From the NCBI RefSeq assembly GCF_001269985.1, contig NZ_BBZB01000001.1, forward strand, positions 1,426,001-1,490,000: a stretch of 64,000 nucleotides of DNA. Direction: 5' to 3'. The position numbers and the translations under genes were made by a program. The stretch's first letter is position 1; every line of letters starts with the position of its first letter. Source of the stretch: Pseudoalteromonas sp. '520P1 No. 423' (GTDB lineage Bacteria; Pseudomonadota; Gammaproteobacteria; Enterobacterales; Alteromonadaceae). The notes beneath the pieces were generated by a model. It made no database searches. It had not been told where the DNA came from and saw nothing but the letters and a program-made list of their open reading frames with translations. Shown here one piece after another: positions 25,873 through 50,119 of the stretch.

Positions 25873-27894
25873 TCATACTTTATTTCGTTTTAAATCTCTG
25901 ACGATAAATCTCGCTGGATGAAGGGCTTGATTCATGGCTAAATCTATCGGTAAAGGTTCATTAAATAGTTCGCTACATAATAGCTCTGCACTTAATGGTG
26001 CGCTGCATAAACCTCTAGCGCCTAAACCTGTGAAAATATAAAGACCAGGAGTTGAAGATTGATAAGGTAAGTAACCATATTTACTGCCATGGCGAAGTGT
26101 GGCAAAACTTGTTTGATAATTAGCTATATCGGTAACTTGGCCAACTAATGGCATATGATCAAAGCTAGTACATCGGATCGCAGCTTTTGCACTGGTTATA
26201 TTATTTAAACCAGAGGTAAATTCACAGTCTCCATAAAAATCAGTCACTTGTTTTAGGTTTATATTATTATCGTCATCGCTGATATGTGTTTCTTTACTGT
26301 TTTTAGTAAATGTTGCCCCAATACAATGATGATCTAAATATTGTGGCGTTAAATAACCTTTATGGCATAAAACCGTTGTGAGTTTCTCTGATTTATCTGT
26401 TGCTTTAACATGGCTGACTTGACCTCTTACTGGATGTAAATCAAGAGTTTTAGTTTGCTCAAATGTATCACTGTGCTCACCTGCTGCTATAATGATTTGA
26501 GAATAAGGGCCGTGCTCATTTTTACCATCAAATAAATACCAGGCATTGTCTTTTTGATAGTATTTTTCAATTTTCGTATTGGTATTTAATTTAAAAGGGT
26601 GATTTGACTGACTATAAGCCAACATGGCTTCTACCAGTTTAGGCGGATTTATCCAGCCTCCGTGTTTGATAAATAAACCTGAGTATGGCGTATCTACATT
26701 TGCTATAGCAGATGCTTGCTCGGCATTTACATAGTGAATTAATTCAAAGGGCCAGTTATTTTGTTTTATGAGTGATTTTTGCCTTTTTTGCTTTTCTGCA
26801 TTTATGCCATGAAGCAATACTCCACACCACTGATATGGAAACTCATAGCCTTTTGCTAATACGTCATCAAAACACCGTCTAGCGTAAAAAAAACTGTGAG
26901 CATAAAACTGACTTTCACGGCTAAAGTTAGCTTGAAGGTGAGGGTATAAAGCACCTTGATGGTTGTGAGATGCACCCATCGCGACTTTTTCATCTTTGCA
27001 GAATACTTCAAACTGGGCATCACGCTTACTTAATGATAAAGCGAGACTTGATGTGGCGATACCGCCGCCTATAATGGCTATACTTTTTAGTTCAGCAGAA
27101 TCTCTAGGGTAATATTTGGGTTCGCTAAATTTATCATTGGCTTTGATGAGCTGGCCGCTGATCATTTCTCTTTTACGGCCAAAGCCTTTGTGTTTTTTTA
27201 CTTCGAATCCGGCTTCAATTAATCCTCTTCTAACAAACCCTGAAGCGGTGAAAGTCGCAAAAGTACAATTATCACGCCCTAAATCAGCCATGGCATTAAA
27301 AAGTGATTGTTGCCACATATCTGGATTTTTGCTTGGGGCAAAGCCATCTAAATACCACGCATCAATAATGCCTTTTTCTTGAAAGCATATTTGCGGTAAA
27401 GTATCTTGAATGTCACCAAACCACAGATCTAATACAATACTACCATTGTTAAACTCCAATCTATGGCATCCTTGCATTGCCACAGGATATAAATCAACTA
27501 ATTGCTCTGCATAGGGTTTTAAACTCGGCCATGCTGCCAGTGATCGGGCTAAGTTAGATTTCTTGATTGGATATTTTTCAAAAGAGATAAAGTGAAGCTT
27601 TTTTACTGCTTTATTTTCACTGTTTTCAAATTGTTGCCAGGTATTTAAAAAGTTTAAACCTGTGCCAAAACCTGTTTCAGCGATAACAAAGTGATTTTGA
27701 TCATGATTGCTAAATCGTTCTAAAATTTGATTCTTTTCAACAAATACAAAGCTAGATTCATTAATTTGAGATACCGTGTTCATCCCTTTATGTGTAGTCT
27801 GTGTAGTGATTGTTTTCGAATAATAAATATCGCCAAATTTATCTGAAACTGGTATACCATCTGAGTTGAAGTGAATTTTAGCGTTTTCAATCAT
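25873..27894 (-). CDS. mnmC: Bifunctional tRNA 5-methylaminomethyl-2-thiouridine biosynthesis protein
   Basis: A 673-aa protein; ATG at 27894 (AAGGA 5 nt upstream) is chosen over 27909. The N-terminal methyltransferase half carries AETGFGTGLNFL near 73-84 and DAWYLDGFAPSKNPDMW near 183. The C-terminal FAD half begins with IAIIGGGIATSSLALSLS near 274. Together they finish mnm5s2U34 in tRNA. Residues 1-45 differ from the host-type start preserved at 50018-50119 and include an unusual insert (KTITTQTTHKGMNTVSQ) just before ESSFVFVEKNQ. The 5' end therefore appears supplied by the adjacent island. Confidence 0.95.
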   Translation of the reverse strand: MIENAKIHFNSDGIPVSDKFGDIYYSKTITTQTTHKGMNTVSQINESSFVFVEKNQILERFSNHDQNHFVIAETGFGTGLNFLNTWQQFENSENKAVKKLHFISFEKYPIKKSNLARSLAAWPSLKPYAEQLVDLYPVAMQGCHRLEFNNGSIVLDLWFGDIQDTLPQICFQEKGIIDAWYLDGFAPSKNPDMWQQSLFNAMADLGRDNCTFATFTASGFVRRGLIEAGFEVKKHKGFGRKREMISGQLIKANDKFSEPKYYPRDSAELKSIAIIGGGIATSSLALSLSKRDAQFEVFCKDEKVAMGASHNHQGALYPHLQANFSRESQFYAHSFFYARRCFDDVLAKGYEFPYQWCGVLLHGINAEKQKRQKSLIKQNNWPFELIHYVNAEQASAIANVDTPYSGLFIKHGGWINPPKLVEAMLAYSQSNHPFKLNTNTKIEKYYQKDNAWYLFDGKNEHGPYSQIIIAAGEHSDTFEQTKTLDLHPVRGQVSHVKATDKSEKLTTVLCHKGYLTPQYLDHHCIGATFTKNSKETHISDDDNNINLKQVTDFYGDCEFTSGLNNITSAKAAIRCTSFDHMPLVGQVTDIANYQTSFATLRHGSKYGYLPYQSSTPGLYIFTGLGARGLCSAPLSAELLCSELFNEPLPIDLAMNQALHPARFIVRDLKRNKV

Positions 27895-27909
27895 TACAAT
27901 CCTTATCAT

Positions 27910-28789
27910 TTATTTTCACAAAAAAGACATCTAAATACATTGGCGGGTTTTGCGTATTAAGCTTTCATGTTTCAACAAGTTTACAAAATCATTTTTAAAG
28001 AACCACATATTACTTTTTGGAAGACGATAAATAAAGAGCAACTTAAGCTTCATAATGGACAGCTTGGAAATATCCTTCCATATTCAGAATCTGATTCTTT
28101 AGCTTGTTTTAACTTTCAGGAAGTTAACTTTTGGTGAGTTTTTGAAATACTCTTTCGTTTATGGATATTTTTAGCATGTTCATTCATTTCCGTAATGTAT
28201 TTGTCACTTTAGAGGCACTGAGAAGCCTTGAAAATGAGCAACGCGCAAGTCTATAGGCTAAGTATGGTCAAAGGTAGTAAAATTGCGAAAGGCTCAGATG
28301 TAAGCTAGCGATTAGTTTCTTGAAGCAGCTATACGTGTATATATTGAAAGGCTTATAGGGTGGTACTTAGCGTTTATCCCAAGTTACATTTTGATTGCTT
28401 TTAAGGTTTCATTACCATCACAAAGTCATCTTGTGACAGTTGGTTTCATAATGTGTTTGTAGCCAACACTTACAAAACTTGATTAATTATTGTTTATCAA
28501 GAAGAAACGATGACATTAAGTCCATGTTGGGCAGGTAATAAAATCGAATATTCGATTGAAGCATATCTATGATTAACGCATGCATTGGTGTGCGAAAGTA
28601 TTCAAACTCTGGCTTGAGTGCTTCTAAGTTTATACGGGTATGAGGTATTAACTTGCCCTGTATAGAAGGTTAACTAAGGTAAGTTGACCTTTCTCATCAA
28701 CCTACCACTCATCCATTACATGTAAGAGCAGCTAAAGAGTAGTTTCTGCTGTTCTTGGCTCTTCGAATACCACTCTACTGACTGACACT
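27910..28789. other. 880 bp island end with no intact gene
   Basis: No supported intact gene. A 57-codon plus-strand frame at 27967-28140 (MFQQVYKIIF...) has no recognisable family. A minus-strand frame at 28487-28669 looks like a gene remnant. The rest shows nothing clear. The part nearest mnmC must contain its present promoter. Confidence 0.5.
28487..28669 (-). pseudogene. Remnant of an unidentified gene
   Basis: An open stretch of about 60 codons without a good start ends at TAA 28487. Its translation (for example LEALKPEFEYFRTPMHALI and MLQSNIRFYYLPNMDLM) has protein-like composition. Upstream frames are interrupted. Family unknown; it could be the tail of an older cargo or transposase gene. 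Confidence 0.3.
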
Positions 28790-29206
28790 TTAAAACATTG
28801 CCCCAGCCAAATTTGAATTAATGCTTTTACGTGTTCCCTCACCGACTAGTAGATAAAATGTATTAGGCGTTTCGAAAATGCAATTTTCATGAAAAGTGAG
28901 TAGTAAGGAAGATCGTACCCAGTCACCTTCATTAAAGCGTCCTACCTGATCATCAATGACATAATCGGACTTAATAACACTAGGAGTTTGTCCTGCGCTG
29001 GCAAACAGTTTAGCGAGCTTCTCTCCTACGTCTAGATCCCACCATTGCCAAGCTTTCACAGTACATACATATTTCTTTGGATTTATAGAATGGCAAACAG
29101 CAATGTAATGCTTGATCTTGTCGGTTTCACAACCTGCAGTGAACTTGTCACCCTGTGCGGTAAACCCATGAATTAAATCTCCTAAGGTTTCATTATTATC
29201 TATCAT
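28790..29206 (-). CDS. Hypothetical protein (DUF6957-like) of the helicase operon
   Basis: A 138-aa soluble protein, third gene of a minus-strand operon, starting 2 nt after the helicase stop. YVIDDQVGRFNEGDWVRSS, then FETPNTFYLLVGEG, near 82-125, resembles small proteins annotated DUF6957; this is recalled by eye and uncertain. It has the size and position of an accessory or inhibitor subunit. No catalytic motif. Confidence 0.6.
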   Translation of the reverse strand: MIDNNETLGDLIHGFTAQGDKFTAGCETDKIKHYIAVCHSINPKKYVCTVKAWQWWDLDVGEKLAKLFASAGQTPSVIKSDYVIDDQVGRFNEGDWVRSSLLLTFHENCIFETPNTFYLLVGEGTRKSINSNLAGAMF

Positions 29207-29208
29207 TT

Positions 29209-30696
29209 TTAAAATACCTCTGCACTGTATTGATTGAGTTGAGCCATTGATTGCTTTGAAATAACCAAATGTTCAAAACCATCAATTTCAAGTTCTTTAT
29301 GATTGAACTGACCAAAGATCCCCATTATTTTATCGGCGGTTATAGCTATTTTACCTTCTTGAATCTCATTAATAGGGTCTTTAATTTCATCATTATCAGT
29401 TATTGCATCTCCAATATTAATTATTGGTTCATCAGAAAAAGTATCTATAGGATCACCGTCAGGAATAACCTGTTCACCTTGGTTCGCCTTATCTACTTCA
29501 GCTGTTATCTCTTCATCCAATTGAGCCAGTTTTACTTTTGCTAATCCATCGGGAACGTCCTGAGCAACACGGTAAGCATACTCAACAAGCTTTGGTTCAG
29601 CTGGCATAAAGAGAAAAGCTTGCTGGTTTGGAGCATCGGTAATACGTAATATACGACCTGAAACTTGGCGGTAATTCATCTCAGTTTTTACATTCGAAAG
29701 ATAACAACATACTTGAAGACGTGGGATATTAGTGCCTTCTGAAATCATTCCGACACTAATGATCCATTTATCTTGACTGTGCCTAAAGGACGTAATCAGT
29801 TCATTTGCGTTATCTTCATCACTAGTAACAACAATGGCGCTTTCTCCTAAAGTCTGCTTCAAAATTAGCTCTATTTTCCAGGCGTGTGGAATCGAGGAAG
29901 CCACAATTAAACCGCCAGCACTTTTATTAAAGCAGCGAATCTCATTTAGCTTGGTATTCGAATGGTTTAATAATTGTTCAATAACGCTAGGGTTAGTAAC
30001 AATCTTAGAATACGGAATTATTGATTGTGACAATAAATCTAAGAAGCTAGTGAAGTGGTTTGTTTCACCATTTTCCACAACTGTTATCTGGTCATTATCT
30101 AATGCTATGACCTGAGGTATACGGCACACATTATCTCTTATAGCCTCTTTTAAACCATATGCGTAATCACACTGTATTTTACCTGACTCGTTACAGTAGT
30201 CGGCTAGCGCTATGGGCAATGCATCTGTACGCCAAGCTGTACCAGTTACAGCAATAGTGAAGGCTGCTCGTTCCTTTATTGTTGTGATGATCGGTTTTCC
30301 CCAAGCATTAGCATCTTTGACGCTTGAGCCTGCACAATGATGAATTTCATCAAATATTACAAATACCCGATATTTATCAAACAAACGCCATACAGTGCTA
30401 TTTAATGTACTTAACGCCTGATAAGTATATGAATTCCCCATTGCGCCAATATTGCCGTCAAAGTGGGCTTCAAACTGTTCGCTTAAAGCACAACTAAAAT
30501 CATGAGCGACAATAGAAGAAGGTGAGAAGCAAAGAACGAGATCGATTTCGCCTCGATCATAAAGTATCTTGGCTAACACTGATGCCATTACAGTTTTACC
30601 AGCACCAGGGGTAGCGAGTGCTAAAAAGTGCTTCTTTGATTTATATTTAGAAATTGCAGAGTTAATACACTCTGACTGCCAATTTCTCAGTTTCAT
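29209..30696 (-). CDS. SF2 DEAD/DEAH-box helicase, candidate defence helicase
   Basis: A 495-aa protein. Q-motif-like LRNWQSECI at residues 3-11; Walker A ATPGAGKT at 28-35; Walker B as DEIHHCAG near 116-123; motif III VTGTAWR near 149-155; motif VI QVSGRILR near 344-351. These give a complete SF2 core like that of type III restriction Res and UvrB-like proteins, followed by an acidic ~120-aa C-terminal tail without a visible nuclease motif. It is coupled (2 nt gaps) to a 171-aa upstream gene and a 138-aa downstream gene. Probably phage defence by context. Confidence 0.82.
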   Translation of the reverse strand: MKLRNWQSECINSAISKYKSKKHFLALATPGAGKTVMASVLAKILYDRGEIDLVLCFSPSSIVAHDFSCALSEQFEAHFDGNIGAMGNSYTYQALSTLNSTVWRLFDKYRVFVIFDEIHHCAGSSVKDANAWGKPIITTIKERAAFTIAVTGTAWRTDALPIALADYCNESGKIQCDYAYGLKEAIRDNVCRIPQVIALDNDQITVVENGETNHFTSFLDLLSQSIIPYSKIVTNPSVIEQLLNHSNTKLNEIRCFNKSAGGLIVASSIPHAWKIELILKQTLGESAIVVTSDEDNANELITSFRHSQDKWIISVGMISEGTNIPRLQVCCYLSNVKTEMNYRQVSGRILRITDAPNQQAFLFMPAEPKLVEYAYRVAQDVPDGLAKVKLAQLDEEITAEVDKANQGEQVIPDGDPIDTFSDEPIINIGDAITDNDEIKDPINEIQEGKIAITADKIMGIFGQFNHKELEIDGFEHLVISKQSMAQLNQYSAEVF

Positions 30697-30698
30697 TT

Positions 30699-31214
30699 TT
30701 AAGTCTCTTTATTTGATTTCATTAGTTCATTTAAAGCCGAAATTTTTCCTTTTAAAACTTGGTTATTTTCCTTAACAGCTACGTAACGTTGCTTTAAAGC
30801 TGCATGTCGTTCAGGGTGAATATTCTTAAGTGCTACATATTCTTTAACAGCACCTAATCCTTCAAGAAGCTCAGAATTGTATTGTTTTAAACGATTAGTT
30901 AATGTTTGTTCGTAACTAAGCTCATTAGTTTTCATCGAACCATCATCACCTAAAGTTACTAATTTTTTAAAATAGTCAGGTTCAAACAAGTTGGTTTTTA
31001 TATAGCGAGTAACCCCTTTCTTAACTGATGTTCTCTTTTTTAACCAACCTCTTTTTACTAGTTTTAAAAGCTCTTCATATACAAAACGTCGAACGGAAGT
31101 AGGATCTAGTCCCTCGTCCCTTTTAATTGAAAGATAAGCAGTTCTGATCTCGACAGCAGAGAAATGATCTATGTTTTTTAAAACGATTATCTGATTAAAG
31201 GTTGAACTATCCAT
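30699..31214 (-). CDS. Winged-helix-like protein with C-terminal coiled coil
   Basis: A 171-aa protein; ATG at 31214 (GGATAAG upstream) is preferred over TTG at 31256. Residues ~5-75 (AVEIRTAYLSIKRDEGLDP, VYEELLKLVKRGWLKKRT) look like a winged helix-turn-helix. The last ~60 residues (KQRYVAVKENNQVLKGKIS) form a coiled coil. It is the first gene of the helicase operon and faces the Xre regulator across a palindromic operator region. It may be a DNA-recognition or oligomerisation subunit of the system, or a regulator. Confidence 0.65.
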   Translation of the reverse strand: MDSSTFNQIIVLKNIDHFSAVEIRTAYLSIKRDEGLDPTSVRRFVYEELLKLVKRGWLKKRTSVKKGVTRYIKTNLFEPDYFKKLVTLGDDGSMKTNELSYEQTLTNRLKQYNSELLEGLGAVKEYVALKNIHPERHAALKQRYVAVKENNQVLKGKISALNELMKSNKET

Positions 31215-31264
31215 TAACTTATCCAATTTCAGCACTTGAAAGTAGAGTATATACAATCTAATGA

Positions 31265-31892: not shown

Positions 31893-31909
31893 TTAATTAG
31901 GTGTAGCAA

Positions 31910-32494
31910 ATGAATAAAACATTATCTGATATTGCGATTGTGAAAGCAGGCCACCCTTTTAGGGGCAAGATACCTGAAGAGTTCGAAGGTAACGCTTATG
32001 TGGTGCAGATCAGGGATATAGATAACGATGGGATCATACATTGGCACCAACTCATTCGCACAAATATAACAGGGCGTAAAATCCCTGATTGGCTGAAAAA
32101 AGGCGATGTACTTTTTGCTGCCCGTGGAGCACGTAATGCAGCGGCTTTTGTTGGGAATATTGATAGACCAACGTTATGTGCACCGCATTATTTTTTAATT
32201 AAAGTAACTGATAAGTCGGTATTACCAGAGTTTATTGCTTGGCAATTAAACCAAGATGGTGCACAGCGTTATTTTGCTAACTCAGCAGAAGGCAGTGCAC
32301 AAACAAGTATTAGACGAGCAGTATTAGAGGCTACTCCTTTAGTTATCCCAAATATTGAAAAACAGAACATAATAGTTGAGTTTGATAACAAAGTTAAACA
32401 AGAAAAGCATTTATTAAATGCTTTAATCGACAACAGATCTAAGCAGATGCAAGGCATTGCCAAAGAATTATTAGATTCTGGTAACCAGAACTAG
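31910..32494 (+). CDS. Half-size type I restriction S-like protein (single TRD)
   Basis: A 194-aa protein with one target-recognition domain (KAGHPFRGKIPE at the start, YVVQIRDIDNDG, then LEATPLVIPNIEKQ near 140) and one C-terminal conserved helix. This is about half of a normal HsdS. It precedes hsdM by 28 nt in the same operon, which also has a full hsdS. It might dimerise or swap with the main S subunit, or be a regulatory S-like protein; full function is not shown. Confidence 0.78.
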   Translation: MNKTLSDIAIVKAGHPFRGKIPEEFEGNAYVVQIRDIDNDGIIHWHQLIRTNITGRKIPDWLKKGDVLFAARGARNAAAFVGNIDRPTLCAPHYFLIKVTDKSVLPEFIAWQLNQDGAQRYFANSAEGSAQTSIRRAVLEATPLVIPNIEKQNIIVEFDNKVKQEKHLLNALIDNRSKQMQGIAKELLDSGNQN

Positions 32495-32522
32495 AAAGAA
32501 TTTAAATTTAAGGACTTATAAG

Positions 32523-34040
32523 ATGACAACAACACAGATAAACCAAGACGAAATTAACAAGGCGGTATGGGCTGCCTGCGATACCTTTAGAGGCACGGTA
32601 GATCCATCAATTTATAAAGACTTCATATTAACTATGCTGTTCTTAAAGTACATCTCTGATGTTTACCAAGATGAATATGACAAGCTTGTTGAGCAATATG
32701 GTGATAACCCTGAGCTTATTCTTGCAATGATTGCAAAACAACGTTTTGTAATGCCAGCAGGGTCAAATTTTTGGGATTTATACGAAAAACGCCATGAAGC
32801 AGGTAATGGTCAGCGTATCGACAAAGCACTTCATGCTATTGAGGAAGCCAACGGCACTAAGCTAAAAAACGTATTTCAAGACATCAGTTTTAATACTGAT
32901 AAGCTCGGCCAAGAAAAGCAAAAAAATGAAATTCTTCGCCATATTTTAGAAGACTTTGGCAAAGATATACTTAACCTTCGTCCTAGTCGAGTTGGCTCTC
33001 TTGATATTATTGGTAACGCATACGAGTACCTGATCAAACATTTTGCCGCAGGCAGTGGTAAATCAGCTGGTGAATTCTATACACCACCTGAAGTATCCGA
33101 TTTATTAGCGGCTATTTTAGAACCTAAGGAAGGTGATGAAATATGCGACCCTGCATGTGGTTCTGGTTCGCTTCTTATGAAGTGTGGTGCAATGGTGCGC
33201 AAAAATTCTGGCTCAAAAAAATATGCCTTATTCGGTCAAGAAGCGATAGGCTCTACATGGGCGCTTGCCAAAATGAACATGTTTCTACACGGAGAAGACA
33301 ACCACCGTATTGAATGGGGCGATACTATTCGTCACCCTTTGCTGTTAGATAAAGCAAGCACAGGCTTATTACACTTCGATATAGTAACTGCAAACCCTCC
33401 GTTCTCATTAGATAAGTGGGGTCACGAAGGTGCTGCGGATGATGAATATGGACGTTTCCGCCGTGGTGTACCGCCAAAGACTAAAGGTGATTATGCATTT
33501 ATCAGTCACATGATAGAAACCTTAAAGCCAGAGTCAGGTCGCATGGGTGTAGTTGTGCCACATGGCGTGTTATTCCGTGCATCAAGTGAAGGTAAAATCC
33601 GTCAACAACTGATTGAAGAAAATCTGCTTGATGCTGTTATCGGTTTGCCTGAAAAGTTATTTTTTGGAACTGGTATTCCTGCGGTGGTTCTTATCTTCAA
33701 AAAGAGAAAGACTGATGAGAATATATTATTTATAGATGCGAGCAGTGAATTTAAACCAGGTAAAAACCAAAATAAATTAACCACTGATAACATTAAAAAA
33801 ATTATAGAAACTTACAGTCTTCGTAAGAATGTTGAAAAATACGCTTATTTAGCAAGTATCGCAGAAATCGAAGAAAACGATTTTAACTTAAATATTCCAC
33901 GCTATGTTGATACTTTTGAAGAGGAGGAAGAAATTGACCTTATTGCCGTGCGAACTGAGCGTTTACATTTGCAAAGTGAATTAAGAATGCTAGAGGTTGA
34001 AATGGAAGGATACTTAAAGGAGCTAGGTTATGATTCCTAA
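32523..34040 (+). CDS. hsdM: Type I restriction-modification methyltransferase
   Basis: A 505-aa protein. The N-terminal helical HsdM domain (residues ~8-150) precedes the N6-adenine methyltransferase domain with SAM motif DPACGSGSLL near 208-217 and catalytic NPPF near 290-293. GEFYTPPEV near 190 is also typical. Together with HsdS it methylates host sites and with HsdR forms the restriction complex. The 3' end overlaps hsdS by 11 nt. Confidence 0.96.
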   Translation: MTTTQINQDEINKAVWAACDTFRGTVDPSIYKDFILTMLFLKYISDVYQDEYDKLVEQYGDNPELILAMIAKQRFVMPAGSNFWDLYEKRHEAGNGQRIDKALHAIEEANGTKLKNVFQDISFNTDKLGQEKQKNEILRHILEDFGKDILNLRPSRVGSLDIIGNAYEYLIKHFAAGSGKSAGEFYTPPEVSDLLAAILEPKEGDEICDPACGSGSLLMKCGAMVRKNSGSKKYALFGQEAIGSTWALAKMNMFLHGEDNHRIEWGDTIRHPLLLDKASTGLLHFDIVTANPPFSLDKWGHEGAADDEYGRFRRGVPPKTKGDYAFISHMIETLKPESGRMGVVVPHGVLFRASSEGKIRQQLIEENLLDAVIGLPEKLFFGTGIPAVVLIFKKRKTDENILFIDASSEFKPGKNQNKLTTDNIKKIIETYSLRKNVEKYAYLASIAEIEENDFNLNIPRYVDTFEEEEEIDLIAVRTERLHLQSELRMLEVEMEGYLKELGYDS

Positions 34041-40146: not shown

Positions 40147-40929
40147 ATGAGTGAAATACAGAAAACAACCCAAGAGCAAGGTGTGTTTGTTTACGGCGAA
40201 GAAGTCATTAACTATGACATCATTCGCCGTATAGCAGATGATAATAGTTCCAAGCCTAAACCTAGAAAAATTTTGATCAAAGTTCATCCAGATCAACGCG
40301 TAGTTGCAACAGTACCCCATAATGCAACTACTGAAGTGATTCAAGAGGCAATGATCAAACGCGCCCGTTGGATATGGGAGAGTATTGTAGAATTTGAATC
40401 TCAACATGAATATGTGATGCCAAGGCAATATGTCAGTGGTGAAACGCAGTTTTACCTTGGTAGACGCTATGTTTTGAAGGTGATAATTGATGGTGAACAT
40501 GCCTCAAATGTGAAATTGCACAGAGGAAAATTGACTGTCAAATTGAAGCAAGAAAAGGATGATCGGGTATCTCAAGTTAAAACACTTTTAGAAAAGTGGT
40601 ATACCCGAAAAGCCAATGCAATCTTTCATGATCGGTTACATGAAATGCTTACTAAAGCGACTTGGGTAGAAGGCTTACCTTCATTTCGTATTATGGTTAT
40701 GAAAAAACAATGGGGAAGTTGCTCTGCAAAAGGTAGCTTAATGCTCAACCCTCATTTGATTAAAGCCCCTAAAGAGTGTATTGATTACGTTATCCTTCAT
40801 GAGCTTTGCCATATTGCAGAGCATAATCACAGTGATAGGTTTTGGCGTTTACTGACGCAGGTAATGCCAAATTGGAAAGAAGTCAAAGCTAAGCTGGATG
40901 ATATGGCCGAGTTGTATTTGAATGAGTGA
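40147..40929 (+). CDS. M48/YgjP-type metallopeptidase of the RM operon
   Basis: A 260-aa protein with the zinc motif HELCHIAEHNHSDRFW near 219-234 (HExxH plus downstream His) and KKQWGSCSAKG near 193, both diagnostic of the YgjP/DUF45 family. Such genes are often last in type I RM operons; their substrate is unknown. It begins 9 nt after hsdR and is the last gene of the operon. Confidence 0.88.
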   Translation: MSEIQKTTQEQGVFVYGEEVINYDIIRRIADDNSSKPKPRKILIKVHPDQRVVATVPHNATTEVIQEAMIKRARWIWESIVEFESQHEYVMPRQYVSGETQFYLGRRYVLKVIIDGEHASNVKLHRGKLTVKLKQEKDDRVSQVKTLLEKWYTRKANAIFHDRLHEMLTKATWVEGLPSFRIMVMKKQWGSCSAKGSLMLNPHLIKAPKECIDYVILHELCHIAEHNHSDRFWRLLTQVMPNWKEVKAKLDDMAELYLNE

Positions 40930-41583: not shown

Positions 41584-43644
41584 CTACAACATCAAAGGCA
41601 CCATTCTTTGGGTGGTACGCTTTTTAATAGGCTGACTCATAACCCGCTCAAGCGGTGTAATCTCTGCCACTTTAACTGCGAGTTTGGCACGAGTGATCGC
41701 TGTGTACGCCCAATTCTTGTTGCAAATAGATAGGTTCTCCATCACTACCACAACTTTATCAAAACCAGCACCTTGGGATTTATGACCTGTGACACAGTAT
41801 CCTAGCTGAATACCAGCATTGATCGCATCCGAATAGCTTAATAATATTTCCCTTGGTTTTCCCTCTGCGGTATCCATATGAAATATCAGTTTGCCATCAC
41901 ACTTCCATTTCAAGTTAGCAAACTGTCCGTTGTAAATCCCAAGATTATTAACATTTTTGGTAAATATCACACGGTCATTGACATAAAAAGGTATATTAAG
42001 AATTGAACACAGTGGCTCTGATAGCGCAGAAGACACCATCTGAGCCTGGATTTTGTGATTTAACAATGTCACGGTGCGGTTTGTAGCTGCAATCACTTGT
42101 GCACCTTCCTCTACCGCATACGATACAATTTCATTTGTGCTACGTTTTAGATAGCCAAAAGCGCCCTGTGCATCAGGTCTTTCACCGCTTAAAATAGCAT
42201 TAGCTGCCCCTGTAATTTCTTGTGCTGCCGCACGCCATATTTTAGTTAGTGTCACGGTGGGGAAGTATGCAACCGCCTGCTTGAAAAAAGCTCCATAACC
42301 AATGGGGGCTAACTGGTTATTATCTCCTGTAAAAATGATGCGAATACCGTGCAATCCAAGGGTTGCGAATGTGTACATGTCTTGAACACTTAACATGGAA
42401 CTTTCGTCTACCACTAAAACTGAGCCTTCAGGAATATTAAGTTGTTTCAACATTAAATCTGACTTTAATTTTGCGATGGTGTAACAGTCTTCAAGTCCTG
42501 TAGCTTGTTTAATCCTATCTACCGCAATTGAAGAGAGTGCGGTTGCTGTTATCGCGCTGCCAACCATAAGGCTGTTAACGTATGCGATAGCATTGATCAC
42601 TTCGGTTTTACCCGTGCCAGCCGCACCTTGAATACAACAAATAGAGTGGTGCATAGCTAACTTCACTGCATCTCGCTGAAGCTGATGCAGAGGTTTATTC
42701 ATGTTTTCAAACAGGTCGATTTTTCGCTCAATTTCATAATCATAAAACTGGTAGGTTGTCGGCTTATCATGTTCGGTCAGAAATGATCTGATCTTAGTTT
42801 CCATTTGATAATTAGGTGAAGATATCAACCAATTACCGTCAGTTAGAATGCTACCATGAAGTTTTGATTGATAAATTATTGAATGTGCATCAACACCATG
42901 TTGCATTGCCCCTTCATTGAATTCATGAGTTTTGAACAGACTGCTACCTGTTTCCTGTGTTAGTGATCTTGATAGCTGCGAACCCAGTGCAGCTAGGCGA
43001 CGTGGATCATCCCGCTTCAATTTGTATTTTGTTGTGGCGATATTGTCAGCTCTATCAAAACCCACCACGACTGCGAGCGAATAAGGATTGCTATCTACGA
43101 CCTCATTTGTTCTGATTCGGTGAAACTTGACCATAGCCAGTGCATCTTGAGAATTAAGACCTAGATTTGCCAAGTGTTGTACTGCCCGTATATCACTGAT
43201 TTTATCTGCCCATAATACCTCAAGTTTAGCAGCTACCTCGCTGCATTCAACTACTTTAGCTAGTTCTGCTGATTTGCTGCCCCCCATGACTACCATCATC
43301 TTTTTAGGGTATTTTTCATATTTATCAGAAAGCGCCCTTAACTGCTTCTGAGTTAACAGAGCTTTGAAGTCTTTGGATTTTCTAATGTACTCAAAGACAT
43401 TTGCAGCAGTGACAGGTGCTAGCTTCCAACTATCAGCCTTGAGAACCTTGCGGTGATATTCACCCTTTTCGAGAGTTCCGCTCAGTCGAATTAAGTCCCC
43501 AATCCTTGGAATATTGCCGTCATCAGGCAGTTCAGCAACACGTTGAGCCGCGTTATAGGTGCCAGAGAGCCTGACGGACTTAAAGAGCGGTTTAATTGAT
43601 GTGACTAGCATCATGTAACTTTTTCTAGTTACTGACTTATCCAC
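41584..43644 (-). CDS. RecD/TraA-like SF1 DNA helicase
   Basis: A 686-aa protein. Walker A QGAAGTGKTEVI near 336-347, Walker B VLVVDESSML near 408-417, TGDNNQLAPIGYG near 436-448 and the C-terminal TGHKSQGAGFDKVVVV near 622-637 give a RecD-type 5'-3' helicase. The N-terminal third has helix-hairpin-helix-like character (ANLGLNSQDALAMVKF). The GTG start overlaps the preceding gene by 16 nt. It is the last gene of the recombinase operon and probably processes island DNA during transfer or excision, or serves defence. Confidence 0.85.
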   Translation of the reverse strand: MDKSVTRKSYMMLVTSIKPLFKSVRLSGTYNAAQRVAELPDDGNIPRIGDLIRLSGTLEKGEYHRKVLKADSWKLAPVTAANVFEYIRKSKDFKALLTQKQLRALSDKYEKYPKKMMVVMGGSKSAELAKVVECSEVAAKLEVLWADKISDIRAVQHLANLGLNSQDALAMVKFHRIRTNEVVDSNPYSLAVVVGFDRADNIATTKYKLKRDDPRRLAALGSQLSRSLTQETGSSLFKTHEFNEGAMQHGVDAHSIIYQSKLHGSILTDGNWLISSPNYQMETKIRSFLTEHDKPTTYQFYDYEIERKIDLFENMNKPLHQLQRDAVKLAMHHSICCIQGAAGTGKTEVINAIAYVNSLMVGSAITATALSSIAVDRIKQATGLEDCYTIAKLKSDLMLKQLNIPEGSVLVVDESSMLSVQDMYTFATLGLHGIRIIFTGDNNQLAPIGYGAFFKQAVAYFPTVTLTKIWRAAAQEITGAANAILSGERPDAQGAFGYLKRSTNEIVSYAVEEGAQVIAATNRTVTLLNHKIQAQMVSSALSEPLCSILNIPFYVNDRVIFTKNVNNLGIYNGQFANLKWKCDGKLIFHMDTAEGKPREILLSYSDAINAGIQLGYCVTGHKSQGAGFDKVVVVMENLSICNKNWAYTAITRAKLAVKVAEITPLERVMSQPIKKRTTQRMVPLML

Positions 43645-44135
43645 GGTGTTATCTCCACTACATATCCATTCGAAAGGGCCTCATTTCCGGCTTGTAGTTG
43701 TTCTATATAGATATTAAGTTTGTGAACTTGCTTAACTAAATTAGCGTTATGTGCTTTTAATTCAAGCACTTTAGCCTCTGTTTCACTAAGTTTCATTTCA
43801 GAATGCTTGAGCATGTTCTGTAACACTTTAACATCTGGTGTAGATGAATTTAATACACGTTTCTCTGCCTCTAAAATCGTTTCAATACCGATATACTTAA
43901 CCGCCCACAGGTACAGCTCGATGGTTTCAGCTGCACCTCTTTTTGGATAAAGGTTTTGACGATCAATTCCAGCGGTTTCCGTAAGTGCGGTTATATCCAC
44001 ACCTTCCTTGCTATCACCCTCAGGTAACTTACCGTCTGACTTTACAAGTTTGATAAGATAATCTTGTAGCTTAATCGCTGTTTTTGCGGTGACTGTCTTG
44101 TTGCATAATTTAGTTAAAATACTGTCACTCATCAT
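43629..44135 (-). CDS. Coiled-coil hypothetical protein of the recombinase operon
   Basis: A 168-aa protein. An N-terminal helical part (residues ~1-85, with DITALTETAGIDRQNLYPKR resembling an HTH) precedes a long coiled coil (~105-155, KLSETEAKVLELKAHNANL). Start and stop overlap both neighbours (TAATG; 16 nt). Similar small HTH plus coiled-coil proteins accompany recombinase operons on integrative islands. Function unknown. Confidence 0.7.
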   Translation of the reverse strand: MMSDSILTKLCNKTVTAKTAIKLQDYLIKLVKSDGKLPEGDSKEGVDITALTETAGIDRQNLYPKRGAAETIELYLWAVKYIGIETILEAEKRVLNSSTPDVKVLQNMLKHSEMKLSETEAKVLELKAHNANLVKQVHKLNIYIEQLQAGNEALSNGYVVEITPWISQ

Positions 44136-44947
44136 TAATTCCCTTTATTTTTATCTTTTGGCAATCCTAAGTCTCGACCTTTAACTTCAAGGAATTTACG
44201 AAAATACTTCAGATCAGCCATTGGTGCGCTAGGATGTGGCACTATCGAGTCAATACAGCCCTCATCCTCATCTTCCATTCCCATGTCCGTTTTAATTTCA
44301 AAAAGAATTCCCCGTTCATGGTCATACTGTATACCCCATTCATCTCGCATGTGGGTGATAAAAAGAGCGAAAGCTTCACAGGTCACTTCAAATTTTTTTT
44401 GCCAACTTGCTTTATTAGCTGTGCTATTAGACGTGTCTAAACTAACAGGGAGAGCTTTTGATTGATCTGCGGAAGCAGAGCTGCCAGGGAGGTACTTCTG
44501 CTGTTCAAAGTCGCCTAAAAGGTAAGGGATAAGTTGTGGCTGCTCACTTTTAGCGTTTTCTTCCAACCACAAATTAATGTATTCACTGCTTTGGTAGTAT
44601 TTTTCTTTAACCTTGAATTTACCCTGTAGGGTTTGGATATCAACCTTGTAAGAGTCTAATGCTCTCTTAACCTGAGCCGGAGTTGCATATTTGGGATCTA
44701 TATTGTCAGCATTTGGGTGCATCTCACTGAATTTAGCCGCAAGTAGGTTCATGTATGCAGGTTGCCTACTTATTGTAGTAGTAGCACACCCAACTAGCTT
44801 AGCCATGTGGTTGATCAATGCATTAATATCTTTAAATGTCGCTCCAGTTGGAAGCGATGCCAAATATCCTTTGATTATTTTGACCTTTTCGTCAATGCGG
44901 CTCTTCTGAAGCGCTTCGAACGGATTGTCACCTTTATGTCTACCCAT
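44135..44947 (-). CDS. GmtX-like protein, third gene of the recombinase trio
   Basis: A 270-aa soluble protein with a basic N-terminus (MGRHKGDNPFEALQKSR). KGYLASLPTGATFKDINALI then GCATTTISRQPAYMNLLAAK (~25-70) look like a DNA-binding helical domain. It begins 1 nt from the stop of the 1112-aa recombinase-like gene. Assignment to GmtX rests on size and gene order after two recombinase-type genes; the sequence itself does not prove it. Confidence 0.6.
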   Translation of the reverse strand: MGRHKGDNPFEALQKSRIDEKVKIIKGYLASLPTGATFKDINALINHMAKLVGCATTTISRQPAYMNLLAAKFSEMHPNADNIDPKYATPAQVKRALDSYKVDIQTLQGKFKVKEKYYQSSEYINLWLEENAKSEQPQLIPYLLGDFEQQKYLPGSSASADQSKALPVSLDTSNSTANKASWQKKFEVTCEAFALFITHMRDEWGIQYDHERGILFEIKTDMGMEDEDEGCIDSIVPHPSAPMADLKYFRKFLEVKGRDLGLPKDKNKGN

Positions 44948-44948
44948 C

Positions 44949-47900
44949 TTATATCACCTCACTTAATTGAAAAATTTGAGGGCTGGCTAGCAACTTGTCA
45001 AAACCGACTCCCTTTTCTTGCATGAGCGCCGATAAATGCCCTGCTACAAGCCCAACAGGATCGCTTTCATCATCTTTGAAACCTTTTTTGTTCATTTTTT
45101 TATACTGAAAATAACACTGGCGAATAAAATCTTCGTGACAGTATTCAGGGTGCTGCTGAGCCTCGATTATCCTTGACAAAAATGCGCCTTTTTCACTATC
45201 AGTATTAATCGATATCTCAACAACATCCTTCACCATATCAGGGCGTCTACAAATAAACTGGTCTTTTTTCTTACCTGATTCAAGCTTTTTCTTAAGCATA
45301 CCTACCGTCATTCGCATAACTGATGCTTCGGTTTGGTCAAGCGAGATCTGCGTTTTAATTGGTGTAATTGTATCCACATCAACCTTTAATTTCTCCAGCC
45401 TGATCACTTGGTTCAGGCCAGTACCAGCAGATCTGCGCTTATCATTTATGCGAGCATTCAGGCCAGAGATATTATCGATACCATAACAAGCAATCGGGCA
45501 AAGGCCACAACGCTTTGATTCTCCAATGATAGTAACAATTTCCTTAGGACAGTCGCCTCCCGCAGGGCATATGCAGTGGTCATACACTACTGACTTTACA
45601 CTACGCTGCTGCGCTATCAGCATCTCCCGCCCACTAACTCCACTGTATTCATTGAACTCTGGGACAGAAATAGAGATCATGCCTTGATCTTCAATTACGG
45701 CTTTTGCGCCAGCGTTAAGTGATGCTTTCATCGCAGAGTCAGACTCTGATGGTTTTATTGCGTTGTTCCCAAGCAAAAATGTGCCTTCCATCATCGCTTT
45801 ATCTGCCAACTCAAGTTGTTTATCTGTGTCGGTTTGATGTTGCGCCTGTTGATAGTGAAACATCATGTTATCTGTCAACCATCCTTGCTGCTCCTTGATG
45901 TCTTCAGTAGATATAAGTCCTTTACGCGCCACCGCATATGTATTCCGCATACTGTGTGGCGTATGGATAGCATAAAGAAAAACTGCTGAGGCATTTCCTG
46001 GACGTTGAATGCCATCCAGATCGACCCAAGCCTCACCATAATTCCACTGGTAAGGCTCGACATTCGAACGTGGTCTTTTGGGTCTCAACTGCACAAAGTT
46101 ATGCTGTTCTGACTTAGGAGCAAATTTGTTGTAGTGAATTTGAATAAAATGTAGAATATCTACCCACATCTCGGCGTATGAAGTATCTGATACAGGCACT
46201 CCCTTACTCTTTTCATGGAAAGACTTAAAAAGAGGCGAAATCAATGTATCAGAATAGGTTGATATTACTGGATCTGTTTCAACATGAGTATATTTACGTT
46301 GAAACTCTTTCTCTGCCTGAAGTTCATCATAAATGTAGGTAGGTACTTTAATTACTCTGTTTTCAAATACCTTATCAATGTCAATCCAAATCGGTTGAAA
46401 ATAGCCTTTTACAGGGGCTAATTTATCAAAGTTATTAATATCCAACCATTGTATATTTTCCATTCGTTGGCCTGCGTGCACATTCGTTCTAAGCATTCTA
46501 AAACAGCTAAGTGTAGGAATAACATCCTTTGTCACACGGTTGTTCCAAGAAAATAAGTTGGGCATAACATCAAATCGAACAGTCTCTTTATTCAGTTCAA
46601 AGCTACACTCCAACCCCCAGTCTGCAAGCTTGATTAAGGGGTTATTTTGTAGATATTGCTTTCTTTGTTCAGCATTCAGGTCTTCAATAAGAATTTTCTG
46701 TAATTGACAATGAATTTCATTGAGAACTTTAAGGGTATTATGCACAAATGGTAGCGTGCACATCGGCATGGCAACTTTATCAGTCGGTTTATTGGGGTTG
46801 TTCATCCCTGCTGCGGATTGCTTGACATCTATTGCAACATCTACAGGGTTTACAAAGTCCTTGAGCAAGGGAGCATCTGGCACTGATGGGTGTTTTGTAT
46901 TGAAGTTCAACGTAGCAAACTGAAAAAAATCATCAATCGAATGATATAATGGTTTTGGAGTCGTAACTTTACTGCTGATCCAGTCGATTAGTGTTTTCGG
47001 TGCATTATCGCTCATTTTACCATCAAGCACCGATTGTTCCCAGAAAATCACGCGGCTAAAATCTTGCATTTTCACAGGCAGGTGGTGAATCGCGTCAGGA
47101 TTGGAAGCGTAAAAATCAAACAAATAGACGAATAAGTAATCTGCGAGGTGGCCTATTGCTCTTCTAGACCGAGATATTATGCTAGGTGTTTTCTTTTCCA
47201 GACTTTTAAAAAAAGCTGCTATTACATAACACCAATCAGGGAACTCTTTTTGCGGATCAACACTTAGTCCAGGGTAAAAATCAGCAGACATGTAGTTAAG
47301 CGTTTTATGACTTTTACTGTAAGCACTGACGTGTTTACAGTAATTATCCATGTCGTTATTGCTTGCAAAGTACATCAATCTGTCTTTAGGAGGTAAACTT
47401 AAAGGTGAAGTGATACTAATGCCAGCGTCATTTACTTTGTTAGCGATCTGTTCTAATTCACGGCCTGATGAGTTATATACTTTAAGTCCACTTTGCAATG
47501 TTTTAATACCATCTAGATACTCAGCAAGTTGTTCCAGCGTATTTAGTTTGAACTCTAGGCTTGCACTAGCTGCCGTATGATGAGCGCCAGTATTAAATAC
47601 ATTGGATAAGTCGCCTTGTGTAAACTCCGCCCCGTTTTCGAGCGCAATTTTAAATAAATTTTCAGGGCGACTCTGCCGCTTTCCAAAGGCATTCGTAACT
47701 TTTCTATCTCGTACATCTGACCAATACTCTTTAAGTGATACATCTTGCCAGGTTTTCCAATCAGTCATCCTTAGAAATTTTAAAGAAACCAAGTAAGTTT
47801 GATAGTGCTTACCTTTTCTCTTAAATTCTGGAGTTACTAAACCAAAGAGGCCCTCAAAAATTTCGTTTTTAATACTGCTAGTAAACCGAATGTTTGGATT

Positions 47901-48287
47901 AGATGGAAACCCTATACTAAGAACTACCAACCCTTGCTCCCATAGCCATTGGAACATGGTTGTGCAGGTTGAGAAAATACCAGCACTAGCGTAAGAGCTA
48001 TGTGTTTTAAGTTTAAGGATATCTTGAACTTTTTGATGCTTTGGATCTTTAGTTGGTATTAGTGTTACTTGGTACAATACTCGCACTTTACCTAGAGTGA
48101 TAGTTTTTAACTCAGGAAATAAGTAGTGTTCGAAGGCTCCTAAACTGATACTACTTGGGGACTTCATTTCAAGATAGGGTAGTTTACTCTTCTTCCTCGA
48201 ATCTAAATACATCACTAAGAAGTCGCTAACCCCTTTCAAAAACTTGTCTTCATCTGGAATAATCAAATCATCAGTGTAATTAATCAT
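44949..48287 (-). CDS. GmtZ-like giant tyrosine-recombinase-like protein with cysteine cluster
   Basis: An 1112-aa protein. The middle/late region contains TPHSMRNTYAVARKG near 773-787, the HxxR box of tyrosine recombinases. It is followed by QQGWLTDNMMFHYQQAQH near 797-814, where the tyrosine matches the nucleophile position. A conserved cysteine cluster (CICPAGGDCP, then CGLCPIACYG, ~900-940) probably binds zinc. The large N-terminal half is unrecognised. It starts 10 nt after the 472-aa recombinase gene. A second recombinase-like protein of this size directly after a first is the feature that recalls GMT islands. Confidence 0.72.
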   Translation of the reverse strand: MINYTDDLIIPDEDKFLKGVSDFLVMYLDSRKKSKLPYLEMKSPSSISLGAFEHYLFPELKTITLGKVRVLYQVTLIPTKDPKHQKVQDILKLKTHSSYASAGIFSTCTTMFQWLWEQGLVVLSIGFPSNPNIRFTSSIKNEIFEGLFGLVTPEFKRKGKHYQTYLVSLKFLRMTDWKTWQDVSLKEYWSDVRDRKVTNAFGKRQSRPENLFKIALENGAEFTQGDLSNVFNTGAHHTAASASLEFKLNTLEQLAEYLDGIKTLQSGLKVYNSSGRELEQIANKVNDAGISITSPLSLPPKDRLMYFASNNDMDNYCKHVSAYSKSHKTLNYMSADFYPGLSVDPQKEFPDWCYVIAAFFKSLEKKTPSIISRSRRAIGHLADYLFVYLFDFYASNPDAIHHLPVKMQDFSRVIFWEQSVLDGKMSDNAPKTLIDWISSKVTTPKPLYHSIDDFFQFATLNFNTKHPSVPDAPLLKDFVNPVDVAIDVKQSAAGMNNPNKPTDKVAMPMCTLPFVHNTLKVLNEIHCQLQKILIEDLNAEQRKQYLQNNPLIKLADWGLECSFELNKETVRFDVMPNLFSWNNRVTKDVIPTLSCFRMLRTNVHAGQRMENIQWLDINNFDKLAPVKGYFQPIWIDIDKVFENRVIKVPTYIYDELQAEKEFQRKYTHVETDPVISTYSDTLISPLFKSFHEKSKGVPVSDTSYAEMWVDILHFIQIHYNKFAPKSEQHNFVQLRPKRPRSNVEPYQWNYGEAWVDLDGIQRPGNASAVFLYAIHTPHSMRNTYAVARKGLISTEDIKEQQGWLTDNMMFHYQQAQHQTDTDKQLELADKAMMEGTFLLGNNAIKPSESDSAMKASLNAGAKAVIEDQGMISISVPEFNEYSGVSGREMLIAQQRSVKSVVYDHCICPAGGDCPKEIVTIIGESKRCGLCPIACYGIDNISGLNARINDKRRSAGTGLNQVIRLEKLKVDVDTITPIKTQISLDQTEASVMRMTVGMLKKKLESGKKKDQFICRRPDMVKDVVEISINTDSEKGAFLSRIIEAQQHPEYCHEDFIRQCYFQYKKMNKKGFKDDESDPVGLVAGHLSALMQEKGVGFDKLLASPQIFQLSEVI

Positions 48288-48297
48288 ATCTCCATCC

Positions 48298-49716
48298 CTA
48301 TAGTGTTTGCTTGTTTATGTTTAGATACAACCTCTCGAACTCGTCAGCCTGCTTTCGTAAGTTTTTGATTATCATCTCAGGTAGCGATAGGTGCGTCTCA
48401 CCCATCAACATCCGATCCGCGGCTTCAAGTTTGGCTTCTAGAACATTTTTATCTTTTATGGCATAACCCTGCGTACTAGTGATGGATGCATGACCCATCA
48501 ATGTCTGAACAGTATTCAGGTCAAGTCCAGGCTCATTTTTCCAAGGAGTAGGGAAGAAGTTGATCATGAATACCCCGTACAAATGTCGTAAGGAGTGCAG
48601 GCTGTAAATACGTGTCATGCCGATACGTCTCTGAGCCACCTTAAACGCTTTATTGAGTGCCCAATAGGTTGCCAGATGAAGAGGTTGACCATAACCAACG
48701 TCATCAAGCTTCAAGAACACGAAATCTTCTTCCGATTCCGGCCTTATCTTCATCCATTCACGGTAACTGTCAAAAAAAATTTGGCGGATAGTAGGAATAA
48801 GGTATACCTTAGCCGTTTCACGACCCTTCCATCTCTTTGGGTTTTCGTATTTAGACGAACCGCGATAATCATTAGGGTCTACGATATAAACCTCTTGCAT
48901 TTCAGGCATGACCAAAGGTATATATGTCACCACGCCTTCACTCTGTCTCAGTCCACCACCCCCTAACAAAGACCATAACGTGCGGTTTCGAGGGCAGGGT
49001 TCTTTTTCAAGTAACTCTTGAAATCTATCGAATGGGAAAGCCCTCTTTCTACCTTCTTCGTATTCTTCCATCTGTTCCAATAAGGAAACTCCACTATTAG
49101 GGTCTATTATGGAGGTTCTACTGCTTTTCCTTACTGACTTTAACTTATTCTTTTTAATAGATTTAATAACGCGGAGGTTTGCACCAAGAATTGAATTTTC
49201 CTTGATGCGCTTGATCTCATGATGAGACATTTTCACTTCACCTTCCAACGCAGTAAATACGAACGCAGGGGAATCGAGTTTAATACCTGTTTCTATTTCC
49301 GCTAGCAACTTCATATCCTTAGCCAATCGCACAGCAAATGTGAGAAAATGATTTACAGCGGCAATATGAGTGCCATCAGATTTAATCCCATTAAACTCCA
49401 TCCGTTCGGCAATGGTTACAATGTACGGTTCTGTCGAACTGACACCGTTTACCAAAAAATCTGGATACGCTTCGACTGCTGTATCCAGAGCATCCTGTGT
49501 AGGCGCGTTATCGCACAGAAAAACTCCAGCTTCAATTAGGTAGTCAATAAACTTAGCGACATTATCGCTGTATAGAACAATTGTCCCTGCTCCAAGGCCC
49601 AGCTTCACCTTCATGTGCTCAACAAATTGAGTAAATGCATCTATGGGCATACTGTTGCTGTTCAATAGCAATCTACGGTTTCCATTTAGCAATTTAATTG
49701 GTGTGACGTTTTTCAT
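48298..49716 (-). CDS. GmtY-like tyrosine recombinase (island integrase)
   Basis: A 472-aa protein. A SAM-like core-binding domain (FVEHMKVKLGLGAGTIVLYS at ~32-51) precedes the catalytic domain. First Arg in GGGGLRQSEGV near 251-261, HxxR box LHSLRHLYG near 371-379, and LMGHASITSTQGYAIKD near 403-419 with the nucleophilic tyrosine. All catalytic residues expected are in place. It is the first gene of the operon at the fabB-proximal end. The palindromic region upstream is its promoter and probable recombination site. Confidence 0.85.
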   Translation of the reverse strand: MKNVTPIKLLNGNRRLLLNSNSMPIDAFTQFVEHMKVKLGLGAGTIVLYSDNVAKFIDYLIEAGVFLCDNAPTQDALDTAVEAYPDFLVNGVSSTEPYIVTIAERMEFNGIKSDGTHIAAVNHFLTFAVRLAKDMKLLAEIETGIKLDSPAFVFTALEGEVKMSHHEIKRIKENSILGANLRVIKSIKKNKLKSVRKSSRTSIIDPNSGVSLLEQMEEYEEGRKRAFPFDRFQELLEKEPCPRNRTLWSLLGGGGLRQSEGVVTYIPLVMPEMQEVYIVDPNDYRGSSKYENPKRWKGRETAKVYLIPTIRQIFFDSYREWMKIRPESEEDFVFLKLDDVGYGQPLHLATYWALNKAFKVAQRRIGMTRIYSLHSLRHLYGVFMINFFPTPWKNEPGLDLNTVQTLMGHASITSTQGYAIKDKNVLEAKLEAADRMLMGETHLSLPEMIIKNLRKQADEFERLYLNINKQTL

Positions 49717-49822
49717 ATATCGCTAATTCCTTGGCATATATGGGGGAATTAATGTGTCTGTATAAAATAACATGCTGACTTTATATACAGTATTGTGTAT
49801 TAAAATGACTTGTCAATAATAA

Positions 49823-50008
49823 ATGCGCAAATATTGCGCATAAACATGATTTCATGAAATAAATACGCAATTTGATATTTTGATTTGTCCTGATGGTTTA
49901 GATTTTAGCAGTGTTTTTTTATTGTTATTTATCAGGTTTGTATGTGTAATTTTGGCTTTTATTGGGAGTGTAAATTGAAATTCACAAAAAAATATATACG
50001 CAATTTAT
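49823..50008. promoter_or_regulatory. Island-end region with palindromes and repeated GCGCAA/ACGCAATTT boxes
   Basis: ATGCGCAA-ATA-TTGCGCAT (49823-49841) is a perfect inverted repeat. CATGA-TT-TCATG (49845-49856) follows directly. ACGCAATTT recurs at 49865 and 49998. The boxes lie between the recombinase start and the island end at about 50024, so they are candidate binding sites for the island recombinases or their regulator. The rest of 49717-50017 is AT-rich with nothing else clear. Confidence 0.55.
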
Positions 50009-50017
50009 TCTGGTACA

Positions 50018-50119
50018 CTAAACTGCCAAACCATCATCGGTAGAAAAATAAATATCGTCAAACTTATCTGCAACGGGTGTACCCGATTGGTTGAAGTATA
50101 TGTGTGCGTTTTCGATCAT
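50018..50119 (-). pseudogene. mnmC: Displaced 5' end of the host mnmC
   Basis: ATG at 50119 opens 33 codons reading MIENAHIYFNQSGTPVADKF..., ending DGLAV and a stop supplied by island DNA. It aligns without gaps to the first 26 residues of the intact MnmC at 27894 (18 identical, counted by eye) and better fits the normal family sequence (DIYFSTDDGLA). It lies divergent to fabB, the usual position of mnmC. It is therefore the host start cut off by the island. Confidence 0.88.

Follow-up and report, generated by a model that had tools for sequence, protein, structure and literature searches.

Introduction

How can an island of more than 22 kb lie inside mnmC, a tRNA-modification gene, while the gene behind it still opens with a start codon? 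This arrangement is found in Pseudoalteromonas sp. '520P1 No. 423' (RefSeq assembly GCF_001269985.1, contig NZ_BBZB01000001.1, positions 1,426,001 to 1,490,000), in a stretch of 64,000 nucleotides that we call the window and whose positions we count from its first letter. We consider it likely that a site-specific element with two tyrosine recombinases entered mnmC and brought a substitute start just inside one of its ends, the R-end. The features on which this reading is built are as follows.

25873..27894, minus strand: hybrid mnmC, 673 residues (NCBIfam NF002480, 711 bits, cut-off 540; E. coli MnmC 3ps9, phmmer E 3.6e-154)
27817..27894, minus strand: island-borne mnmC codons 1-26, within the island border (60/78 nucleotides as in the host stub, 18/26 residues as in the homologue P0059)
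27760..27816, minus strand: codons 27-45, read as the translated R-end, linker KTITTQTTHKGMNTVSQIN (from comparison of R-ends with five relatives)
27900..27904, minus strand: AAGGA, ribosome-binding-like, 5 nucleotides ahead of the ATG (sequence reading)
50018..50119, minus strand: stranded host mnmC start, with a frame resembling an ordinary MnmC N-terminus (host DNA from 50023)
50335..51546, plus strand: fabB, the native divergent neighbour (86-97% identical and adjacent to mnmC in 71/71 congeners examined)

Results

An island separates mnmC from its host start

Comparison with the DNA of a sister species (G003) and a further congener (G033) places the island/host borders at 50022|50023 on the fabB side and at 27758|27759 on the mnmC side, the latter with one base of ambiguity. 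Since host sequence starts at 50023 and stops at 27758, the island spans 27759-50022, or 22.3 kb, within the mnmC of the Pseudoalteromonas chromosome. The empty site is well represented: all 71 congeneric mnmC loci examined, from among 107 other genomes of the genus, lack both island and insert and have fabB divergent and adjacent. Among 18 further loci of the order, chosen from 35 matching non-congeners, fabB is divergent and adjacent in 17, the exception (L167) having no fabB within the 3 kb fetched for it; the divergent neighbourhood of the two genes, which the initial annotation had expected in relatives, is therefore found at 88 of 89 loci. The insert is absent from all 89. Additionally, 112 of the 120 closest MnmC proteins listed show the normal spacing of 17 residues at this site, which measures 30 in the window protein; one of the remainder (P0176) was misread by the regular expression and looks normal by eye, and seven are truncated or decayed at the site. 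The search for island-free relatives with the insert (71/71 congeners, 18/18 others and the listed proteins) thus returned none, and the proposal of a discrete island inside mnmC, with a hybrid start made of island codons, is upheld.

The severed host start lies beside fabB, 22 kb from the rest of mnmC, and translates as MIENAHIYFNQSGTPVADKFDDIYFSTDDGLAV*, a frame of 33 codons that consists of 32 host codons, one island codon and a stop. P0059, a close homologue without the insert that is available as protein only, agrees with this stub at 32/32 residues, the first 26 included, and then runs straight into the body, where it is identical to the hybrid at 585/626 positions. The stub is thus the host start, as had been suggested, with 32 rather than 33 host codons. 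On the other side, the hybrid frame is free of stops from 27894 to 25873, and its N-terminus reads MIENAKIHFNSDGIPVSDKFGDIYYS-KTITTQTTHKGMNTVSQIN-ESSFVFVEKN. Its 45 island codons comprise 26 that are mnmC-like and 19 from the element end; the latter have no counterpart in MnmC and replace six host codons, a net gain of 13 residues where an insert of 17 had been counted.

An assembly or annotation artefact would fit an arrangement seen in one genome only. However, a single contig spans both junctions, in a genome of 5.39 Mb that consists of two contigs and is 100% complete, and both ends match the ends of related elements; we regard such an artefact as scarcely credible. Separately, fabB and mnmC lie 480 bp apart in G003 (L004) and 398 bp apart in G068 (L025); the range for the rest of the congeners examined is 173-215 bp, and the excess reflects either small separate insertions or divergence.

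The odd MnmC peptide matches the end of an element

Two features define the ends of the island.

27791..27805, minus strand: R-end motif TACACAGACTACACA (motif class found four times in 570,896 bases, always at an R-end)
49818..50022, minus strand: L-end with repeated ATACGCAA/ATGCGCAA sites (terminus matches the Colwellia L-end)

The motif class TACACA-N2/3-TACACA was scanned for on both strands of 30 sequences, in which some overlapping stretches are counted twice. Each of its four occurrences starts 41-47 bp inside an R-end, namely those of the window, Thalassotalea, Alteromonas portus and Pseudomonas, or four of the six resolved R-ends with the window included. In the window the motif is translated within MnmC as Thr-Thr-Gln-Thr-Thr-His; as judged from these sequences, the odd insert in MnmC is element end that has come to be translated. 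At the other end, the terminus of the window and that of Colwellia agree at 25 of 32 positions, and none of 1000 shuffles did as well.

A two-recombinase module whose relatives mostly split tRNA genes

A block of five genes adjoins the L-end.

48298..49716, minus strand: 472-residue tyrosine recombinase (PF00589, E 2.3e-10; R257, K297, H374, R377, H409 and Y418 invariant in 14/14)
44949..48287, minus strand: 1112-residue protein, read as a second tyrosine recombinase, with a C-terminal Cys cluster (R608, K639, H778, R781, Y812, C907, C913, C927 and C930 invariant in 11/11 aligned)
44135..44947, minus strand: 270-residue module protein (32% and 47% identical in Thalassotalea and Colwellia)
43629..44135, minus strand: 168-residue module protein, likely coiled coil by eye (42.5% and 55.7% identical in Thalassotalea and Colwellia)
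41584..43644, minus strand: RecD2-like helicase of the mobility module (TIGR01448, 205 bits, below the cut-off of 500; kept in Colwellia, Thalassotalea and A. portus)

The block keeps the same order in Colwellia, Thalassotalea and A. portus. By our assignment of residues, both recombinases carry the catalytic set of R, K, H-x-x-R and Y, and it is by this set that we read the 1112-residue protein, which has no match in Pfam or NCBIfam, as a tyrosine recombinase; its counterpart was aligned in ten relatives. Among 108 genomes of the genus, a full-length match to it was found in this one only, with weak partial matches in two others. The search at the level of the order gave matches in 48 of 394 genomes, mostly weak ones to the recombinase core. 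Relatives of the recombinase were absent from phages, while plasmids gave five records of 43% coverage only and 26-28% identity, and viral contigs two distant matches. Metagenomic recombinases (P0003-P0008) reach 61-66% identity. Relative to the element ends, the A. portus module (L069/L105/L106, record 484074 to about 508845) has the opposite orientation to that of the window, and its cargo lies on the other side.

A first contig search returned no match; an alignment-based contig search with the recombinase then gave 15 genome loci of relatives. In 11 of these the L-end lies within a tRNA gene, which is cut after the TTC of the T-loop; the window L-end comes instead after GGCAG in mnmC. The split tRNAs are Arg(CCT) twice, Arg(TCT), Met(CAT), Leu(TAG), Ser(TGA) three times and Gly(CCC) three times. 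An intact tRNA of the same anticodon is present in the same stretch in nine of the 11, or in seven of nine if three alike Pseudomonas loci count once. The host 3' halves were located for A. portus, Vibrio, Ferrimonas and one Pseudomonas, which places the spare tRNA inside the element in these four; for the other seven the 5' half only was found. For A. portus, the 11-mer CCCTCCTAAGG is confined to the broken host tRNA-Arg gene and the spare of the element, which suggests, without proof, that the spare is the sole tRNA-Arg(CCU) there. The elements of Colwellia and Thalassotalea split protein genes instead, for an aspartoacylase-like protein and a mechanosensitive channel; sites were assigned at 13 of the 15 loci, all except L068 and L077.

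The claim that the island targets mnmC as such gained no support, since no second insertion was found and the relatives lie in tRNA genes or in other coding genes. An mnmC-specific element already established elsewhere was rejected, with no second case among the 89 loci, among the 120 closest proteins listed or in a search with hybrid residues 1-70.

A proposed route into mnmC and the evidence weighed

In the route that we propose, recombination placed the element, with its two tyrosine recombinases, after host codon 32 of mnmC and ahead of codon 33. The severed 5' stub would thereby have been joined to the L-end, next to which the 472-residue recombinase is encoded, and the rest of mnmC to the R-end. 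The substitute start just inside the R-end would consist of the ribosome-binding-like site, the ATG and 26 codons, while the R-end itself, presumably a recombinase-binding arm, is open in frame. Ribosomes would therefore read the substitute start, then the 19 codons of the element end and then host mnmC. From this arrangement we infer transcription from within the island, an active enzyme and the arrival of the substitute start together with the element. Probably the mnmC start represents, in a protein gene, what the relatives do when they break a tRNA gene and carry a spare, as the comparison of their loci suggests. The stronger findings are the odd peptide, which appears to be a translated recombination end, and the spares that relatives repeatedly carry for split tRNA genes.

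Several observations weigh against this reading. As to the ends, the TACACA-N2/3-TACACA motif is missing at the Vibrio R-end and at best partial in Ferrimonas. Its first form, with N3, came from the window and Thalassotalea, and N2/3 was adopted only once the ends of A. portus and Pseudomonas were known; the count is therefore after the fact, though no other site in the scanned DNA fits. The scan with the N3 form had singled out no other R-ends. The R-ends of the window and Thalassotalea, aligned alone, give a score also reached by 46 of 2000 shuffles, and the Thalassotalea L-end matches that of the window or of Colwellia only at shuffle level (617 and 292 of 1000 as good). As to the relatives, no substitute start was seen in Colwellia and Thalassotalea, the closest kin, although both junctions were read for Thalassotalea only, and one side only, by eye and without an empty site, for Colwellia. 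No intact tRNA for the split tRNA-Ser(TGA) of L070 and L071 was found in the limited DNA fetched, and Rfam gave only a sub-threshold tRNA on part of L070; these two are either exceptions to the spare rule or cut-off stretches. Of the bootstrap trees of 14 recombinases, only 40% recover protein targets as the outcome of one switch, and the site counts cover the 15 relatives, leaving out the order-level recombinase matches and the two viral loci. As to mnmC itself, neither the 89 loci nor the 120 closest MnmC proteins listed contain a second insertion, and the search with residues 1-70 matched three proteins, none carrying the insert. The island does carry its own mnmC 5' end, inside the borders, as had been claimed. 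The promoter claimed along with it was not recovered: a sigma70-like consensus scan found no site on the mnmC strand upstream, its three sites all lying on the other strand, with a shuffle mean of 3.2. Finally, a Gly-Leu pair that is nearly invariant in MnmC is lost to the linker, and the silent divergence between the island start and the stub (dS 0.66) is not above that between the host and G003 (dS 0.97), as measured over 78 nucleotides only; a foreign donor is therefore not demanded.

The loss of the Gly-Leu pair bears on whether the hybrid works at all. The hybrid could be dead or half active, its frame open by luck and its methyltransferase half spoiled by the linker; the few MnmC relatives with a decayed methyltransferase motif, which indicate that this half may at times be dispensable, would agree with that. 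Against it stand 673 codons without a stop and a substitute start in frame with a ribosome-binding-like site. The body of mnmC is also under constraint, with ratios of nonsynonymous to synonymous divergence (dN/dS) of 0.07 against G003 and 0.06 against G033, although this mostly predates the insertion. Additionally, a structure model (56 sequences) has a mean predicted local distance difference test (pLDDT) score of 89.7 and a template-modelling (TM) score of 0.93 to E. coli MnmC; one stretch, residues 25-38, falls below a pLDDT of 50, and residues 1-20 average 60-68. The MnmC fold is thus predicted to be kept, activity of the hybrid is plausible on the model, and a dead or half-active enzyme seems to us unlikely. 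As an observation apart, four MnmC relatives, L151 (G030), P0168, P0169 and P0171, have an altered methyltransferase motif (GFGTG) near the N-terminus; P0168 is named only as an oxidoreductase by a source.

The age of the substitute start was approached through the stub. Island codons 1-26 differ from the stub at 18/78 nucleotides and 8/26 residues. The stub itself differs from G003 at 8/78 nucleotides, all silent (dN 0.0), which indicates that it was under selection until recently. The divergence of the island codons therefore speaks against a recent local copy, and a recent local duplication of the host mnmC start is ruled out by the eight residue differences, together with a stub that is unchanged relative to P0059 and shows no non-silent change relative to G003. 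Because the stub was conserved until recently while the island codons diverged, the island start, as a separate sequence, would on this reading be older than the insertion. When the stub and 20 congeners were compared as donors for the 26 codons, the host stub matched best (60/78), followed by G033 (57/78).

Another possibility is that the island broke mnmC first and that a stray mnmC start of a related species later landed inside the R-end, to be kept as a local repair. One further feature lies beside the island mnmC start.

28065..28631, strand unassigned: probable relic of the end of a TniQ-type transposon (matched at 80% by G033:C76, and by two G000:C2 pieces)

Fuller copies occur in G033 and, in two pieces about 2 kb apart, on contig 2 of G000, where a neighbouring gene has a weak TniQ match (E 2.5e-4, below the Pfam cut-off). 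That the remnant adjoins the substitute piece favours a local repair, as does the lack of any other mnmC insertion with such a start among the loci and listed proteins. The Thalassotalea and Colwellia genomes also give one mnmC match each and no extra start piece at E 0.001, a limit at which the window's own stub is barely detectable; the Colwellia R-end lies beyond its contig. However, a repair needs two in-frame illegitimate joints in a short time, because the piece lies inside the R-end and the stub shows neither a residue change against P0059 nor a non-silent change against G003. The tRNA cases of the family, moreover, show substitutes carried inside elements. We therefore hold a later repair to be rather improbable and favour entry of an element that already carried its substitute start.

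Cargo

In outline, the island carries type I restriction genes, joined by genes for a SIR2-like protein, a YgjP-like protein and a helicase.

28790..29206, minus strand: DUF6957 protein (PF22275, E 3e-34)
29209..30696, minus strand: ResIII/RadD-like helicase (PF04851, E 5e-10)
30699..31214, minus strand: 171-residue protein without a family match in Pfam, NCBIfam and PADLOC scans
31910..32494, plus strand: half-size HsdS-like specificity protein (PADLOC Specificity_I, E 3e-17)
32523..34040, plus strand: HsdM methyltransferase (PADLOC MTase_I, E 2e-131)
34030..35244, plus strand: HsdS specificity subunit (PADLOC Specificity_I, E 8e-71)
35261..36820, plus strand: SIR2-like protein (PF13289 weak, below the Pfam cut-off; PADLOC Aga_SIR2, E 2e-6)
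36829..40137, plus strand: HsdR restriction subunit (PADLOC REase_I, 1291 bits)
40147..40929, plus strand: YgjP-like metallopeptidase (PF01863, E 2.5e-57)

In the window (31910-35244), HsdM lies between a half-size HsdS and a full-size one, an order that recurs in the elements of A. portus (L069) and Neptuniibacter (L068).

Discussion

The nearest named group is that of the Gamma-Mobile-Trio (GMT) islands, which we take to carry a tyrosine recombinase, then a protein of about 1100 residues and smaller ones, with defence or type VI secretion cargo, as the window island does. The window recombinase scores 36 bits against the GmtY model NF040693 (cut-off 340), and that of L080 scores 46 bits. For the GmtZ and GmtX partners, neither the 1112-, 270- and 168-residue proteins of the window nor the second and third Vibrio proteins had an NCBIfam match, and such models may not exist. 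The window island differs further in its RecD2-like gene and its target. It is not filed as GMT, because it scores far below the cut-off of the one model found. L080 (with L174) is an island of about 27 kb in a tRNA-Arg(TCT) gene of Vibrio owensii, with a spare tRNA-Arg(TCT), a VgrG-like protein by eye and a GMT-like look.

Tn554-type transposons likewise have two tyrosine recombinases and a small protein, and they use one site, radC; compared by description only, the window island differs in its site mnmC, in sizes and in its helicase. Tycheposons and other tRNA-restoring islands use tRNA genes as sites and carry the tRNA on the element. Here, in contrast, the cut falls in the T-loop, the spare is a whole tRNA that differs in sequence, and one member lies in a protein gene with a substitute start.

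Gene starts supplied by islands are already known from dusA and prfC, and the window island works like those without being a member of either group. The dusA-specific integrative elements (IMEVchUSA3), which are mobilised by IncC plasmids, give their target a new N-terminus of native length with measured expression, as described in PMC8409611. They are alike in that the island supplies the new N-terminal codons of its target gene, here codons 1-45. They differ in target (dusA rather than mnmC), in recombination module (by the genes seen, with integrases compared by description only) and in the native length of the N-terminus, to which the element end adds a net 13 residues here. Moreover, they supply a promoter, whereas our consensus scan found no site on the mnmC strand. 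The SXT/R391 integrative and conjugative elements in prfC have, according to PMC2791158, one Int and near-identical attP/attB sites, and they provide a new promoter and N-terminus as told in PMC8409611. There too, insertion splits a translation gene at its 5' end, and a replacement start is provided. The window island, set apart by description, has two recombinases, junctions whose core in common with the empty site is about one base long, and mnmC as its target. A literature search joining mnmC, integration site and genomic island found no report, and of the matches listed for mnmC, fabB and genomic island, none concerns this arrangement by its title or the start of its abstract.

With this island, mnmC joins the tRNA-modification genes known to harbour islands, among which PMC8409611 names dusA and trmE. 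The island also presents a case in which the recombination end itself would be translated within a core enzyme. More tentatively, with the odds somewhat against us, the relatives may form a widespread defence-carrying family that breaks genes of the decoding machinery, carries a working substitute (mostly same-anticodon tRNAs, and the mnmC start in the protein-gene lineage) and so becomes costly to lose in part, because a deletion leaving the junction open would remove the only working tRNA or enzyme start. The end motifs could serve to delimit more such islands, and the tRNA pattern of the relatives suggests a way in which defence islands can settle in conserved genes without much cost.

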